The notes under the pieces: generated by a model
Told to the model about the DNA's origin: nothing
Database searches by the model: none
Seen by the model: the letters and a program-made list of their open reading frames with translations, nothing else
NCBI RefSeq assembly: GCF_024171955.1
Contig: NZ_JAMTCS010000001.1
Span: 62,001 to 126,000 of the forward strand
Source: Promicromonospora thailandica
GTDB taxonomy: Bacteria > Actinomycetota > Actinomycetes > Actinomycetales > Cellulomonadaceae
Direction: 5' to 3'
Length of the DNA: 64,000 nucleotides
In this document: positions 19,103 through 62,344 of the stretch, piece by piece
Numbering within the stretch: the stretch's first letter is position 1
How the letters are laid out: each line of letters opens with the position of its first letter
Made by a program: the position numbers and the translations under genes

Positions 19103-19207
19103 ATGGACCAGGACGTCGTCGAGCTCGTGCAGGTGGCCACCACGATCGACGCCGTCGTGGCGGTCGTCGCCGCCGTGACCCGCCGACGCGCCCGCCGGCG
19201 GCCCTGA
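19103..19207 (+). CDS. Possible 34-residue leaderless small protein
   Basis: A 34-codon frame. It begins MDQDVVELVQVATTIDAVVA, has a hydrophobic stretch TIDAVVAVVAAVT and ends in an Arg-rich tail (RRRARRRP). A TACGCT hexamer 7 nt upstream and a strong terminator hairpin beginning at its stop codon make it a complete small transcription unit. A membrane-surface or nucleic-acid-binding role is conceivable but unproven. No homologue recognised. Confidence 0.4.
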   Translation: MDQDVVELVQVATTIDAVVAVVAAVTRRRARRRP

Positions 19208-19279
19208 TCGCCTTCGAAGCCGAGGTTGCTTCGCTTTCGAGGGTTCGAAAGCGAAGCAACCTCGGCTTCGAAGGTGATC
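19206..19279. terminator. Long hairpin family (GAGGTTGCTTCGCTTT), copy A
   Basis: Arms 19206-19240 and 19245-19279 form a 35-bp stem with a 4-nt loop and one G-T pair. The shared core is GAGGTTGCTTCGCTTT / AAAGCGAAGCAACCTC. It separates the small ORF (+) from the convergent HADH gene (-). Two further copies are at 38354 and 40081, both also between convergent genes, which supports a bidirectional terminator. Confidence 0.8.
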
Positions 19280-35000: not shown

Positions 35001-36332
35001 CTACGCGTTCGCGGTGACCGTCCGGAGCTCGTGGAGGCGCGAGCCGTCCGCACTGATGCGGGCCGTGGCGGTGGCGACCGCACCGACCACGCAGATGACC
35101 GCGGAGTAGACGACCACGGGCCAGATCTGCCCGCCGACCAGCGCCACCAGACCGGTGCAGATGAACGGCGCCAGCCCGCCGCCCAGCGTGTTGGAGATCT
35201 GGTAGCCGATGTTGACGCCAGTGGTGCGGGCCTCCGGGTCGAACATCTCGGCGAGCATGGTCTGCAGGGTGGCCTGCATGGCCACGCCGGGGATCACGAA
35301 CCCGACGATCATCCCGACCCAGATGAGCACCAGGTTGCTGGTGCCGAACAGGAGGAACGCGGGCCAGACCAGGAGCGCGAAGCCCACACAGCCCGCGATG
35401 TAGACCCGGCGTCGTCCTATCCGGTCCGAGAGCGCCCCGTAGGCGGGGGCGACGACGATCTGCAGCAGCCCCACGATCATCGTCCCGGCGAAGCCCTGCC
35501 AGGCCGGGATGTCGTTCTGGTTGACCATGTAGGCGATGCCGAACGTGAGCACCACGTACCCGGCGATGCTCTGCGGCAGGCCGATGAGGATGCCCATGAT
35601 CGCGTTCCTCGGGTGGCGGAACACCTCGACCAGGGGGTTGACGCGGACGCCCGCGTCGGCCTGCGCGCGCCTGGTCTCCTTGAACTCGTCGGACTCCTCG
35701 AGCCGGCTGCGCAGCACGACGGCGATGATCGCAAGCACCAGTCCGAGCACGAACGGGATGCGCCAGCCCCAGGTCAGGAACCACGACTCCGGACCCAGCC
35801 CGAGACCGGCCATGAGGCCCGCGGAGGCGACGTTGGCGATGCCGGCGCCGCTGATGAGGAAAGCCCCGTACATGCCGCGCCTGCCGACGGGAGCGTGCTC
35901 GACGACGAGCGTCGCCGCCCCGCCCATCTCCCCGCCGACGAAGAACCCCTGGCACATCCGGAAGAAGATGAGCAGCAGCGGCGCCGCGATGCCGATCGAC
36001 GACTCGGCCGGGATCAGCCCGATGCCCGCCGTCGCGATGCCCATGCCGACCACCGTGATGAGCAGCGTCATCTTGCGGCCCACCCGGTCGCCGATCGGCC
36101 CGAACACCAGGCCGCCGACCGGCCGCAGGAAGAAGCCGACGGCGAACGTCGCGAACGAGGAGAGCTGCGCGACGATCGGGTCCTCGCCCGTGAAGAACAC
36201 CGCGGGGAAGATCGCCGCCGACGCCAGGCCGTACAGGTAGTAGTCGTAGTACTCCATGAGCGTGCCGATGGCGCCACCTGCGATGGTGCGCTTCTGGGTG
36301 CCGCTCAGGGGCTGTGTCGCCGTCCCAGCCAC
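35001..36332 (-). CDS. MHS-family major facilitator transporter
   Basis: 443 residues, twelve membrane segments. N-terminal LMEYYDYYLYGLASAAIFPAVFF and loop FGPIGDRVGRKMTLL, central GFFVGGEMGGAATLVVEHAP and second-half ALSDRIGRRRVYIAG are the metabolite:H+ symporter pattern (ProP, ShiA). It imports a small organic acid or amino-acid-like solute with protons. GTG 36332 is chosen from CGGAGG 5 nt upstream. The YheO-type regulator is encoded directly upstream on the same strand, with a palindrome in the 93-bp gap. Confidence 0.92.
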   Translation of the reverse strand: MAGTATQPLSGTQKRTIAGGAIGTLMEYYDYYLYGLASAAIFPAVFFTGEDPIVAQLSSFATFAVGFFLRPVGGLVFGPIGDRVGRKMTLLITVVGMGIATAGIGLIPAESSIGIAAPLLLIFFRMCQGFFVGGEMGGAATLVVEHAPVGRRGMYGAFLISGAGIANVASAGLMAGLGLGPESWFLTWGWRIPFVLGLVLAIIAVVLRSRLEESDEFKETRRAQADAGVRVNPLVEVFRHPRNAIMGILIGLPQSIAGYVVLTFGIAYMVNQNDIPAWQGFAGTMIVGLLQIVVAPAYGALSDRIGRRRVYIAGCVGFALLVWPAFLLFGTSNLVLIWVGMIVGFVIPGVAMQATLQTMLAEMFDPEARTTGVNIGYQISNTLGGGLAPFICTGLVALVGGQIWPVVVYSAVICVVGAVATATARISADGSRLHELRTVTANA

Positions 36333-38353: not shown

Positions 38354-38443
38354 CCCGCCCGGATCCGCTTCGAGACCGAGGTTGCTTCGCTTTGAGGGGC
38401 TTCAAAGCGAAGCAACCTCGGTCTCGAAGGGGATCCGGGCGGG
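38354..38443. terminator. Long hairpin family, copy B
   Basis: 42-bp arms 38354-38395 and 38402-38443 with a 6-nt loop and one mismatch. It shares the GAGGTTGCTTCGCTTT core with copies at 19206 and 40081; its outer arms (CCCGCCCGGATCC) are its own. It lies between the convergent Ohr (+) and WYL (-) genes. Confidence 0.8.
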
Positions 38444-40054: not shown

Positions 40055-40080
40055 CGCGGCGCGGCGGGCGTGCTGCGTCC

Positions 40081-40166
40081 CGCCCCCATCGACTTCGAAC
40101 CCGAGGTTGCTTCGCTTTCAGCGACCTGAAAGCGAAGCAACCTCGGGTTCGAAGGCGATGGGGGCG
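40081..40166. terminator. Long hairpin family, copy C
   Basis: 41-nt arms 40081-40121 and 40126-40166 with a 4-nt loop and one mismatch. Core as in the other two copies; outer arms CGCCCCCATCG / CGATGGGGGCG are unique to it. Located between two convergent VOC genes. Confidence 0.8.
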
Positions 40167-40179
40167 GGGCGGGCCGAGG

Positions 40180-41872: not shown

Positions 41873-42256
41873 TCAGTCGTCCGGGTCGGTGCGCCGCGTG
41901 CCGACCGGGCCCGTCGCGCGCGGGAAGCCCAGCGTGCCCGCCGCGACCCACCACTCCATCACGTCGTAGGCCAGGCGGCCGGCGACGACGGACGGGTCTC
42001 CGTCCGACCACCGCGCCGCCTCGGCGGGATCGCACGCGAAGACCGACATGCCGCGGTAGGCCGGATCGCTCTGCGCGCCGAACGGGCCGTTGGCGACGAG
42101 CACGCCGCGGCGGACCAGGTCGGCGCGGTACGCGAGGTGCTCGGTCTGGAGGGCGTCGAGCTCGGCCGCCGACATCTCGGGCGCGCCGGGAGGGCGCCGC
42201 AGCACGACGACGGTGACCACGTCGAACGCGTCCGGGATGTTGGGGTCGCGACCCAT
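41873..42256 (-). CDS. YCII-related protein
   Basis: 127 residues. LQTEHLAYRADLVRRGVLVANGPFGAQSDPAYRGMSVFACDPAEAARWSDGDPSVVAGRLAYDVMEWW is the YciI pattern, with a His in the TEHL position and Asp in GD-P. A small dimeric ferredoxin-like protein; catalysis not established. TAGCCT lies 6 nt before ATG 42256. It is followed by the CPT-like kinase after 22 bp, so the two may be co-transcribed. Confidence 0.8.
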   Translation of the reverse strand: MGRDPNIPDAFDVVTVVVLRRPPGAPEMSAAELDALQTEHLAYRADLVRRGVLVANGPFGAQSDPAYRGMSVFACDPAEAARWSDGDPSVVAGRLAYDVMEWWVAAGTLGFPRATGPVGTRRTDPDD

Positions 42257-42347
42257 GCACCCAGGCTAGCCCCGGCGGTGCCCGCCGCCCCTGGTTCCGC
42301 GGAGTGGGTACCGCGGGGCGCCGGGCAGGGCGGGCGCCGGGCACCGC

Positions 42348-42435
42348 GAGATCTGGTGTCTGCGCCGAGATCTGGCAGTGCGCGACCAGATCTCAGCGTG
42401 CGCACCAGATCTCGGCGGCGCACGCACCAGATCTC
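42348..42435. repeat. AGATCT array 1 (5 sites)
   Basis: Two GAGATCTGG units (AGATCT at 42349 and 42368) are followed by three CCAGATCTC units (42388, 42407, 42429), linked by GC-rich spacers with GTGCGC. A degenerate GGGTCTGG follows near 42448. The flip of orientation allows the RNA to fold on itself. It occupies the 248-bp gap after the epimerase gene (42257-42504), in which I see no gene. Confidence 0.8.
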
Positions 42436-42504
42436 GGCGTGGGCGCCGGGTCTGGCGGCCGGGCGGGCGGCGAGACGGGGGCGAAGCGGGAGCGAGGGCA
42501 CCGG

Positions 42505-43404
42505 TCAGGGGTTCGTGGTGTAGGCGCCGGTCAGGATGTCCTCGACGAGCGCCGGGCCGGTCGGCTCCCAGCCGAGCTGCCGCCGCGTCGTCGTGCTCGT
42601 CGCCGAGAGGTCCTGCCCGAAGAAGTACGAGATCCAGCCGAAGTGCTCCCGCGCCTTCTCGGCCGGGACAGAAGCCACGGGCAGGTCCAGCACCCTGCCG
42701 ATCGCCTCGGCGATCTCCCGCGTCGGCACGCCCTCCTCGGCGATCGCGTGCAGCCTCGCGCCGGCGGGCGCCTTGGCGAGGCCGAGGGCTACCAGCCGGG
42801 CGGCGTCGGACCGGTGGACGGCCGCCCAGCGGTGGTCGCCGTCGTCCACGTAGCCGGAGACTCCGGTGCGGCGGGCCACGTCGTGGAGCACCGCGAGGAA
42901 CCCGTGGTCGTGCAGGCCGTGCACGGTCGGCGCGAAGCGCAGGCTCACGCTGTGCACGTCGCGGTCGACGAACCCGAGCGCCAGGTTCTCGCTGCCGCCG
43001 CGGGCGGAGTCCGGGCCGTGGGCCGGGGAGGCGTCGTCCTCCGTGACGGGTCGCCCGCTCACCACGCCCGCGATTCCCGCCGCGAGCAGGAACGGGCGAC
43101 CCGTGCCGGACAGTGCGTCACCGATGGTCTGCACCGCGGCACGCTCGGCCGCGTCCGAGACGGCAGGGTGGGCGAAGTCGTGCTTGTTCGCGAGGTGCAG
43201 CACGGCCTCGGCGTCCTGCGCCCCGCGGCGGATGCCGTGGAGGTCGTCGAGGTCGCCGCGCTGCACGGTGACGCCCTTCGCGGCGAGGGCCGACGCCGAC
43301 GCGTCGGACCGCGCGAGCGCGGTGATCGTGTGACCGTCGGCGAGAAGCTCGTCCACGGCGGCGGAGCCGATCCAGCCGGAGGCTCCGGTGACGAATACCT
43401 GCAT
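42505..43404 (-). CDS. NAD(P)-dependent epimerase/reductase (extended SDR)
   Basis: 299 residues. VFVTGASGWIGSAAVDELLADGHTITALARSDASA is the Rossmann motif, with GDLDDLHGIRRGAQDAEAVLHLANK next. The canonical Tyr-x3-Lys is not evident, so it may be an atypical SDR or use a divergent site. ATG 43404 follows GGAAGG. It is divergent from the TetR gene at 43498 and should be its target. AGATCT arrays lie beyond the 3' ends of both genes. Confidence 0.88.
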   Translation of the reverse strand: MQVFVTGASGWIGSAAVDELLADGHTITALARSDASASALAAKGVTVQRGDLDDLHGIRRGAQDAEAVLHLANKHDFAHPAVSDAAERAAVQTIGDALSGTGRPFLLAAGIAGVVSGRPVTEDDASPAHGPDSARGGSENLALGFVDRDVHSVSLRFAPTVHGLHDHGFLAVLHDVARRTGVSGYVDDGDHRWAAVHRSDAARLVALGLAKAPAGARLHAIAEEGVPTREIAEAIGRVLDLPVASVPAEKAREHFGWISYFFGQDLSATSTTTRRQLGWEPTGPALVEDILTGAYTTNP

Positions 43405-43432
43405 GGTGGGTCCTTCCAGTGATGTCAGTGAC

Positions 43433-43491
43433 TGATGTCAGCCACAGACATCACCGTACGCCCGAAGTCAGTCGCTGTCATCACCTAGACT
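43433..43491. promoter_or_regulatory. Operator TGATGTC-N7-GACATCA and TetR -10
   Basis: TGATGTC (43433-43439) and GACATCA (43447-43453) form a dyad; related half-sites GTCAGTGACTGATGTC and CAGTCGCTGTCATCA flank it. TAGACT (43486-43491) lies 6 nt before the TetR ATG. The layout fits control of both divergent genes by the TetR product. Confidence 0.6.
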
Positions 43492-43497
43492 GGACCC

Positions 43498-44079
43498 ATG
43501 GCGCGATGGCAACCCGGCACTCGGGGACGGCTGCAGGACGCAGCCCTGGAGCTCTTCGCGAGCCGCGGCTACGAGCAGACGACGGCCGCCGAGATCGCGC
43601 GGTCGGTCGGCCTCACGGAGCGCACGTTCTTCCGGCACTTCAGCGACAAGCGCGAGGTGCTGTTCGGCGGTCAGGAACGACTGACGGAGGCGTTCGTGCG
43701 CGGTATCGAGGCGGCGCCGGACGACGCGACACCGATGGAGGCGGTCGGCGACGCGCTGGACGTGGCCACCGGCCTGTTCCCGGACGACATGCGCCCGCAC
43801 TCCCGGCTGCGCCAGACCGTGATCGACCAGCACCCGGCGCTCCAGGAGCGTGAGCGGCACAAGATGTCGGGCGTGGCCACGACCATCGGCGACGCGCTGC
43901 GGGCGCGCGGCGTCGGCGAGCCCGCGGCAACTCTCGCCGCGGAGTCGGCGAGCACGGTGTTCGGTATCGCGTTCAGCCAGTGGATCCAAGACGGCGAGAG
44001 CCGCTCGCTCGGGGACATCTCCCGCGCGGTGCTGGCCGAGCTGCGGGACCTGACGGGCGCCGACCGCGCGCCCCGCTGA
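43498..44079 (+). CDS. TetR-family transcriptional regulator
   Basis: 193 residues. Helix-turn-helix: LQDAALELFASRGYEQTTAAEIARSVGLTERTFFRHFSDKREVLFGG, typical of actinobacterial TetR proteins (TERTFFRHF). A leaderless promoter (TAGACT, 6 nt) precedes ATG 43498. It is divergent from the epimerase gene across a region with GATGTC dyads. Its stop codon overlaps the first AGATCT of array 2. Confidence 0.93.
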   Translation: MARWQPGTRGRLQDAALELFASRGYEQTTAAEIARSVGLTERTFFRHFSDKREVLFGGQERLTEAFVRGIEAAPDDATPMEAVGDALDVATGLFPDDMRPHSRLRQTVIDQHPALQERERHKMSGVATTIGDALRARGVGEPAATLAAESASTVFGIAFSQWIQDGESRSLGDISRAVLAELRDLTGADRAPR

Positions 44080-44435
44080 GATCTGGGGTCCCGGCAGGTT
44101 CCGGCACCTGTGACGTGCGCTGAGATCTGGGTTCCCGGGCCCGAGACCCACGCCGAGATCTGGGGTCCCGTCGCCGAGATCTGGTGTTGCCGTCGAGATC
44201 TGGCCGTGCGCCACCAGATCTCAGCGCGGGCACCAGATCTCACCGGCGCAGCACCAGATCTCAGCACAGCGGCACCGGCGGGCCGCAGCGCAGCACCAGA
44301 TCTCAGCAGAGCCGCACCAGCCGGCCGCAGCGCAGCACCAGATCTCAGCAGAGCCGCACCAGCGGGCCGCAGCGCAGCACCAGATCTCGGCACAGCGGCA
44401 CCGACCGGCCGTAGCCCAGCGCGCCAGATCCGCCG
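44078..44435. repeat. AGATCT array 2 (11 sites)
   Basis: Five GAGATCTGG units (AGATCT at 44079, 44123, 44156, 44177, 44196) are followed by six CCAGATCTC units (44216, 44235, 44256, 44298, 44340, 44382). A degenerate CCAGATCCG follows near 44428. All left-hand units face one way and all right-hand units the other, so the whole block is one imperfect inverted repeat. It fills the gap between the convergent TetR and UBP genes; I see no gene in it. Confidence 0.85.
44249..44416. repeat. Four tandem 42-bp repeats inside array 2
   Basis: Units at 44249-44290, 44291-44332, 44333-44374 and 44375-44416 each begin CAGCACCAGATCTC and continue with a GC-rich tail ending GGCCGCAGCG. Units 2 and 3 are nearly identical. 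Because 42 is a multiple of 3, open frames cross it and mimic a 14-residue protein repeat. Confidence 0.88.
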
Positions 44436-44455
44436 TCAGGCGGCCGCCCGGGGCG

Positions 44456-44743
44456 TCAGCGGAGGGCCTCCAGGTCCGCCGTGTGGATCGTCTCCTCGTC
44501 GACGTAGCACCAGCCCCACCCCTCGCCCGGCTCGACCGAGCGCATGAGCGGGTGCCCCGTGGCCTCGAAGTGCGCCGTCGCGTGCTTGGCGGGCGACGAG
44601 TCGCAGCAGCCCACCTGACCGCACACCAGGCAGCTGCGCAGGTGCACCCAGGTGCCGCCCAGGGCCACGCACTCCGGGCACGCGTCCCGGTTCTCCGGTT
44701 CGAGGACGGCGACCTGGTCCAGGTGCGTGCAGTCGGTGCTCAT
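44456..44743 (-). CDS. UBP-type zinc-finger protein
   Basis: 95 residues. CTHLDQVAV, CPECVALGGTWVHLRSCLVCGQVGCCDSSPAKHATAHFEATGHPLMRSVEPGEGWGWCYVDE carry the zinc Cys and His of zf-UBP. In eukaryotes this fold binds ubiquitin C-termini; stand-alone bacterial copies are frequent in actinobacteria with unknown role. ATG 44743 follows GAGGACACC. It ends just before array 2. Confidence 0.9.
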   Translation of the reverse strand: MSTDCTHLDQVAVLEPENRDACPECVALGGTWVHLRSCLVCGQVGCCDSSPAKHATAHFEATGHPLMRSVEPGEGWGWCYVDEETIHTADLEALR

Positions 44744-44844
44744 CGTCGGTGTCCTCACGTCGGTCCGGTCGTCTGCGGCGGCGCACCGCCGTCCGCTCCT
44801 GCCGCGATTCTAGGCCGGGCGACGATGCCGCGGGCGAGCGGACG

Positions 44845-62288: not shown

Positions 62289-62344
62289 CGAGAACGACCT
62301 GCGGGACGGGATCGGGGCCTGACCCGTCCCGCAGGTCGTTCTCG
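62289..62344. terminator. Perfect 22-bp hairpin between convergent genes
   Basis: Arms 62289-62310 (beginning CGAGAACGACCTGCGGGACG) and 62323-62344 match perfectly around a 12-nt loop. It lies between the aminotransferase (+) and the secreted protein (-). Unlike the three long hairpins it does not contain the GAGGTTGCTTC core, so it is a separate terminator. Confidence 0.8.

Follow-up and report, generated by a model that had tools for sequence, protein, structure and literature searches.

A dispersed modular palindrome at gene 3' ends in Promicromonospora, putatively a two-way transcript-end hairpin

The two arrays of inverted 9-mers that bracket a divergent epimerase/TetR gene pair in Promicromonospora thailandica are copies of a dispersed, multi-copy, intergenic modular palindrome. 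Its 66-bp core, GAGATCTGG-N10-GAGATCTGG-YNGYGCRCNR-CCAGATCTC-N10-CCAGATCTC, consists of two direct and two inverted 9-mers with unit starts at 0, 19, 38 and 57, every step being 19 bp. Copies of this four-unit core are spread through the genome, lie at gene 3' ends and have the potential to form hairpins, and at two orthologous convergent gene ends most of the relatives that lack it have a hairpin of another sequence family. Judging from these sequence features, we lean towards the view that the element is a putative interchangeable transcript-end hairpin that would work in both directions.

The window, that is, the whole stretch of 64,000 nt that was analysed, contains 17 exact GAGATCTGG or CCAGATCTC units (0.38 expected; maximum of 2 across 100 shuffles), of which 16 fall into two clusters and the remaining one, at position 35194, is a stray within a gene. 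The AGATCT hexamer occurs 26 times in the window, although only 3.9 occurrences are expected. The earlier note had therefore rightly described 16 perfect units in two clusters and the chance rarity of AGATCT; it had also extended the second cluster to 44435, but the exact units end at 44388 and only a degraded unit lies beyond. The features are as follows.

41873-42256, minus strand: gene for a YCII-domain protein, downstream neighbour of array 1
42348-42435: array 1, five exact units, ++ then ---, in the gap that separates the epimerase stop from the start of the YCII gene
42376-42385: centre of array 1, CAGTGCGCGA, the orientation flip point
42505-43404, minus strand: gene for an NAD(P)-binding epimerase / NmrA-like protein, with array 1 beyond its 3' end; outside the element
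43498-44079, plus strand: gene for a TetR-family regulator, whose TGA runs into the first unit of array 2; outside the element
44078-44388: array 2, eleven exact units, +++++ then ------, the first unit on the TetR stop codon
44254-44388: 42-bp tandem repeat in the right arm of array 2, in three near-identical copies
44389-44435: right-arm continuation of array 2, degraded unit CGCCAGATCC only
44456-44758, minus strand: gene for a zf-UBP protein, facing TetR convergently across array 2

The switch from plus to minus units is exact in both arrays, and, as the earlier note had it, one array follows the 3' end of each gene of the pair, with array 1 starting 69 bp past the stop of the minus-strand epimerase gene. 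What that note missed is the fixed spacing. In array 1 the core (42348-42413, ++ --, 19-bp steps) is joined by one extra outer unit at +22 (42427-42435); in array 2 the core (44176-44241) is flanked by outer units at 21, 33 and 44 on the left and 21, 42, 42 and 42 on the right, so that the steps in the two arrays are 19/19/19 in the core, followed on the outside by 21 or 22 and, farther out, by 33, 42 or 44. The family consensus of the array centre, YNGYGCRCNR, is near-palindromic in itself.

Far from being scattered evenly and without order, a pattern that the earlier note had set against its own claim, the 244 copies of the 9-mer in the P. thailandica genome (118 forward, 126 reverse) are in many cases part of orientation-ordered arrays, with 26 four-unit cores at 23 intergenic sites. 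The reversed word has 2 copies in the genome, a control that is loose because GAG-ATC-TGG is a run of ordinary codons, so that stray 9-mers within genes are to be expected. P. citrea and the other three species have mostly the bare core, to which P. thailandica adds outer units, usually after a 21-bp step and then mostly after 32 or 42 bp (gap clusters at 32, 40 and 42). Across the genome, the remains of a unit are seen at offset 21 in many of the 42-bp gaps, which thus resemble a pair of 21-bp modules whose middle unit has decayed; together with the three 42-bp copies in array 2, this makes the outer growth look like tandem duplication of 21-bp modules. Strict helical phasing of the outer units was rejected, since 42 is better read as two such modules and uniform gaps are a weak null.

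A scan of the genome collection for the core gave matches only in P. citrea ATCC 15908, P. sp. AC04 and P. sp. MEB111. The exact double unit is present in 5 of 13 Promicromonospora species and in none of the 209 other genomes of the family; G001 has three arrays only, and the single direct pairs in G025, G043 and G056 were set aside as they are not the four-unit core. These presence/absence statements are based on species-level comparisons. A plasmid search with array 1 gave no match, IMG/VR contigs yielded one direct pair, and a literature search on the 9-mer returned nothing relevant. A covariance model of the element has hits in all 13 Promicromonospora species, and those of the weaker ones that were inspected proved to be mostly a sister subfamily, GAGATCGGT, and in two cases other hairpins. 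Rfam contained no match above the gathering score, only sub-threshold microRNA models, i.e. generic hairpins. Several arrays of P. citrea (G008) lie at contig ends (C54, C77, C151, C232, C116), which suggests that the palindromes probably break the assembly and that the true copy number is higher.

In Promicromonospora the sister motif, GAGATCGGT-N10-GAGATCGGT, has a four-unit geometry identical to that of the GAGATCTGG core. Its direct pair occurs in 10 of 13 Promicromonospora species and in 8 genomes from four other genera of the family. In three genomes, two from genus g20 and one from g7, most GAGATCGGT arrays have 19/19/19 steps, and their placement is convergent in 9 cases, tandem in 8 and divergent in 2. 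The two spacer arms of a locus in these genomes, however, are no more alike than arms taken from different loci (5.47 vs 5.36 of 10). Because GAGATCGGT keeps the 19/19/19 spacing without arm matching, the units, their order and their spacing look like the shared constraint and the arm matching like an addition in Promicromonospora. In G179 (genus g7), L227:2999-4357 carries longer 19-bp tandem GAGATCGGT arrays, with up to six same-orientation units including degraded ones. Outside the family hardly any genome has a looser double-unit pattern: it occurs in 3 others among the 396 of the order sample and in one other of the phylum sample.

That clusters in related genomes should be sought at 3' ends had been proposed in the earlier note, and the placement bears this out: 24 arrays are in convergent, 28 in tandem and 4 in divergent gaps, compared with 39, 176 and 92 other gaps in the same loci (convergent versus divergent, Fisher p=5e-8), as judged by a purpose-written codon-usage caller rather than standard annotation, single calls of which can be wrong. 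In tandem gaps the arrays lie at a median of 28.5 bp from the upstream stop versus 112.5 bp to the next start (p=1.5e-5).

The hairpins that the earlier note anticipated are predicted to be strong, with energies of -43 to -85 kcal/mol and z from -5 to -16. Unit mismatch, calculated for the pair not used for detection, is 2.0%, a lower bound because detection let only a limited number of mismatches pass in each core, whereas the spacers depart from consensus in 27.7% of positions at fixed length. Yet the two spacer arms of a Promicromonospora core match each other at 7.6 of 10 positions within a locus versus 6.0 between loci (5000-permutation maximum 6.6), and the 38-core alignment has 134 doubly changed cells in register, 74 when shuffled and at most 61 when slid; these 38 cores were picked for exact units, hence the unit invariance in that alignment is by selection. 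In the orthologous arrays L082 and L088 (G001 and G003, flanks 90-94% identical) the units are identical, and five spacer pairs are altered on both arms and all still pair. At tandem sites G-U mismatches are not favoured on the transcribed strand (28 GU vs 25 AC), for which reason strand-specific RNA selection via G-U pairs was rejected. The absent G-U excess favours copying of one arm onto the other at the DNA level, by the template switching at hairpins described in PMC8794818, over slow RNA compensation, and the arm matching indeed looks like a DNA-level process. No U-tract was found after the stem (T fraction past the element 0.05-0.07 vs 0.13 overall), and no classical terminator in window positions 42200-44600.

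Replacement by other hairpins is seen at two orthologous junctions, both between convergent genes, in most of the species that lack the GAGATCTGG element. At the convergent P450/FMO junction, which has a GAGATCTGG array in P. thailandica, most of the 10 relatives fetched have strong hairpins, and the sequence families of these are others, no fewer than two or three in number. CGAGGTAGTC-like modules make up the hairpins of G004, G008, G009 and G012, and a GGGCCCGGCCGA-type hairpin is present in G001 (within a longer structure), G003 (beside an inserted reading frame), G006, G007, G010 and G011. At the polA junction 6 of 10 relatives have other-family hairpins, and G001, G005 and G007 have little or nothing. 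In samples of 200-264 kb, strong hairpins occupy 13 of 24 convergent and 2 of 38 divergent gaps in G000, and 15 of 28 and 0 of 29 in G006; the enrichment is not seen in the sample of G001, where they occupy 3 of 16 convergent and 2 of 26 divergent gaps. What is said here of the other hairpin families applies to such samples only.

Several further observations were made on these junctions and families. In G002 the polA junction holds an inserted DUF433/DUF5615 pair, which is toxin-antitoxin-like (L160:792-1384). A second family of dispersed palindromes (TTCGAGACCGAGGTTGCTTCGCTTT..., also present as its inverse), with stems of 32-43 bp, occurs in the window at 19206-19279, 38354-38443 and 40079-40168, with a further copy at G000 C3:371240 and relatives in G001, G006, G008, G010 and G011. 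A third modular hairpin type consists of 16-bp modules (CGARRTAGAAC/CGAGGTAGTC plus NNNNGG), at least two per arm, on an inverted plan like that of the GAGATCTGG element; its sites are L188:12770, L194:17844 and L195:3136 in P. thailandica, L074:1123 and L230 in P. citrea, and L231 in G009. A perfect 22-bp palindrome (CGAGAACGACCTGCGGGACGG...) lies in a convergent gap at window 62289-62344, with similar words at L045:11217 and L053:10239.

Together, our data suggest a model in which RNA from either side of the element would fold into a long stem, which may stop or trim transcription, either by itself or with the help of Rho/NusG or RNase III, and may insulate convergent genes. Template switching during replication would copy one spacer arm onto the other, selection would then keep the stem, and the near-invariant 9-mers might be read by a candidate sequence-specific protein that spreads the element or acts at gene ends. 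The 3'-end placement, the hairpin stability, the in-register covariation and the replacement by other hairpins all speak for the transcript-end reading, and the first, second and last of these lend partial support to the earlier note's suggestion of terminators or protein-binding arrays. The absence of a U-tract, without which it is disputed whether hairpins terminate in actinobacteria (PMC12288462), the absence of a G-U bias, and junctions without a strong hairpin (G005 and G007 at polA) speak against it, as does the fact that a hairpin alone needs no near-invariant 9-mer. Since the 9-mers are not explained by the stem alone, a sequence-reading protein is plausible. Carried further, the ++-- core, whether of GAGATCTGG or GAGATCGGT and with its 19-bp steps, could serve a dedicated, hitherto undescribed protein as its substrate, with that protein both spreading the core and acting at gene ends, so that these would be mobile terminators unrelated to RAYT/REP, with several hairpin families competing for the same ends; we regard this extension as rather doubtful.

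The main rival to a transcript-end hairpin, serious but on the whole unlikely, is an array for a protein on double-stranded DNA, like the BIME sites for IHF or gyrase: a protein would occupy four 9-bp ++-- sites in 19-bp steps near 3' ends, for example for supercoil handling between convergent genes, and the hairpin would be a by-product. This agrees with near-fixed units beside variable spacers of fixed length, with the exact geometry of GAGATCGGT in another genus where the arms are unmatched, and with preferred outer distances of 21, 32 and 42 bp, each close to a whole number of helical turns; these outer spacings can, however, also be obtained by tandem duplication of 21-bp modules. No candidate protein was identified, protein binding alone does not predict arms matched beyond consensus in Promicromonospora, and unrelated hairpins take the element's place at the same gene ends. 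We consider it improbable that the element is a non-autonomous mobile repeat of MITE or REP type, devoid of host function and surviving best in 3' intergenic gaps. Multiple copies, the patchy occurrence among species, presence and absence at syntenic sites, and the several sequence-unrelated families common to the same sites would all be expected of such a repeat, but direct repeats in the flanks are not above chance (3.56 vs 3.86 and 4.26 vs 4.47 between unrelated loci), and a Y1/RAYT transposase (Y1_Tnp, PF01797) is absent from all 13 genomes of the genus, although 5 of 14 control genomes were positive. Moreover, units are kept at orthologous sites while spacers change, and a purely selfish repeat does not require a hairpin at the P450/FMO junction of most relatives as well.

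Finally, the arrays might be scars left behind when the epimerase/TetR pair was inserted, as the earlier note had proposed, given that an array is found at both ends of the pair. Likewise, three species have an extra gene without a Pfam family at the polA junction, next to a methyltransferase gene on its other side (L054:6006-6941, L075, L087); it has arrays on both sides and is absent from this junction in the other species examined. P. citrea, however, has YCII, epimerase, TetR and zf-UBP in identical order; its two junctions measure 57 and 43 bp and hold no array, and its TetR stop is followed by an unrelated perfect short hairpin. Because the gene order is kept there without both arrays, the scar explanation was ruled out for this pair and appears hardly credible; most arrays are single and flank other genes, and about 20 other array sites in the P. 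thailandica genome have no epimerase/TetR-like pair. The arrays are thus unrelated to the gene pair they flank, and the difference between the two species would reflect either gain in P. thailandica or loss in P. citrea.

If the transcript-end reading is right, gene ends in these actinobacteria would be marked by swappable repeat families, and a single junction between the same two genes would carry different hairpin families in different species. Such variation would serve as a natural experiment on the requirements of a U-less actinobacterial terminator, a disputed point, both views of which are cited in PMC12288462. Near-fixed 9-mers beside co-varying spacers would then represent two separable constraints, sequence recognition and stem pairing.

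Among known systems, canonical intrinsic terminators share with the element a stable predicted hairpin shortly past the stop codon but have the U-tract that is absent here. The U-less "I-shaped" terminators of actinobacteria are closer, being GC-rich hairpins near the stop codon without a U-tract (PMC12288462), yet they are not described as repeat families with an invariant repeated word. MITEs are likewise short, non-coding and multi-copy with inverted symmetry, but neither target-site duplication nor autonomous partner was seen for the Promicromonospora element. DNA uptake words generally number 1000 or more copies, in genes as well as in gaps, whereas the 9-mer has the 244 given above, many in arrays, with three arrays in G001 and the exact pattern absent from 8 of 13 species. 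The uptake sequences of Neisseria and Pasteurellaceae are 9-10 bp words that form inverted pairs in gene-end hairpins or terminators (PMC1852404), and in this they are alike; the four-site 19-bp geometry, however, is foreign to uptake sequences. REP and BIME sequences come nearest. According to PMC3733652 and PMC2817692, they are interspersed extragenic palindromes at or just after 3' ends, mainly convergent or tandem, in clustered modules, and have been proposed to act in termination, at mRNA ends and in protein binding. Membership in RAYT/REP was rejected, as both the transposase and the GTAG/CGTC tag are absent (core consensus ccgctGAGATCTGGTGttcgcG.cGAGATCTGG..., symmetric, 66 bp), and the phyla listed for tagged REPs in the excerpt of PMC3733652 do not include Actinobacteria; a REP is also a single hairpin of 20-40 bp, unlike the 66-bp core with its two direct and two inverted 9-mers. 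The earlier note knew of no described element of this form, which holds for the genus in the literature searched, but the kind, palindromes interspersed at 3' ends, is familiar from REP/BIME. The best reading is that the element, though without RAYT transposase, REP tags, target-site duplications and U-tract, is related in kind to REP/BIME, being interspersed, extragenic, palindromic, modular and concentrated at 3' ends and in convergent gaps.
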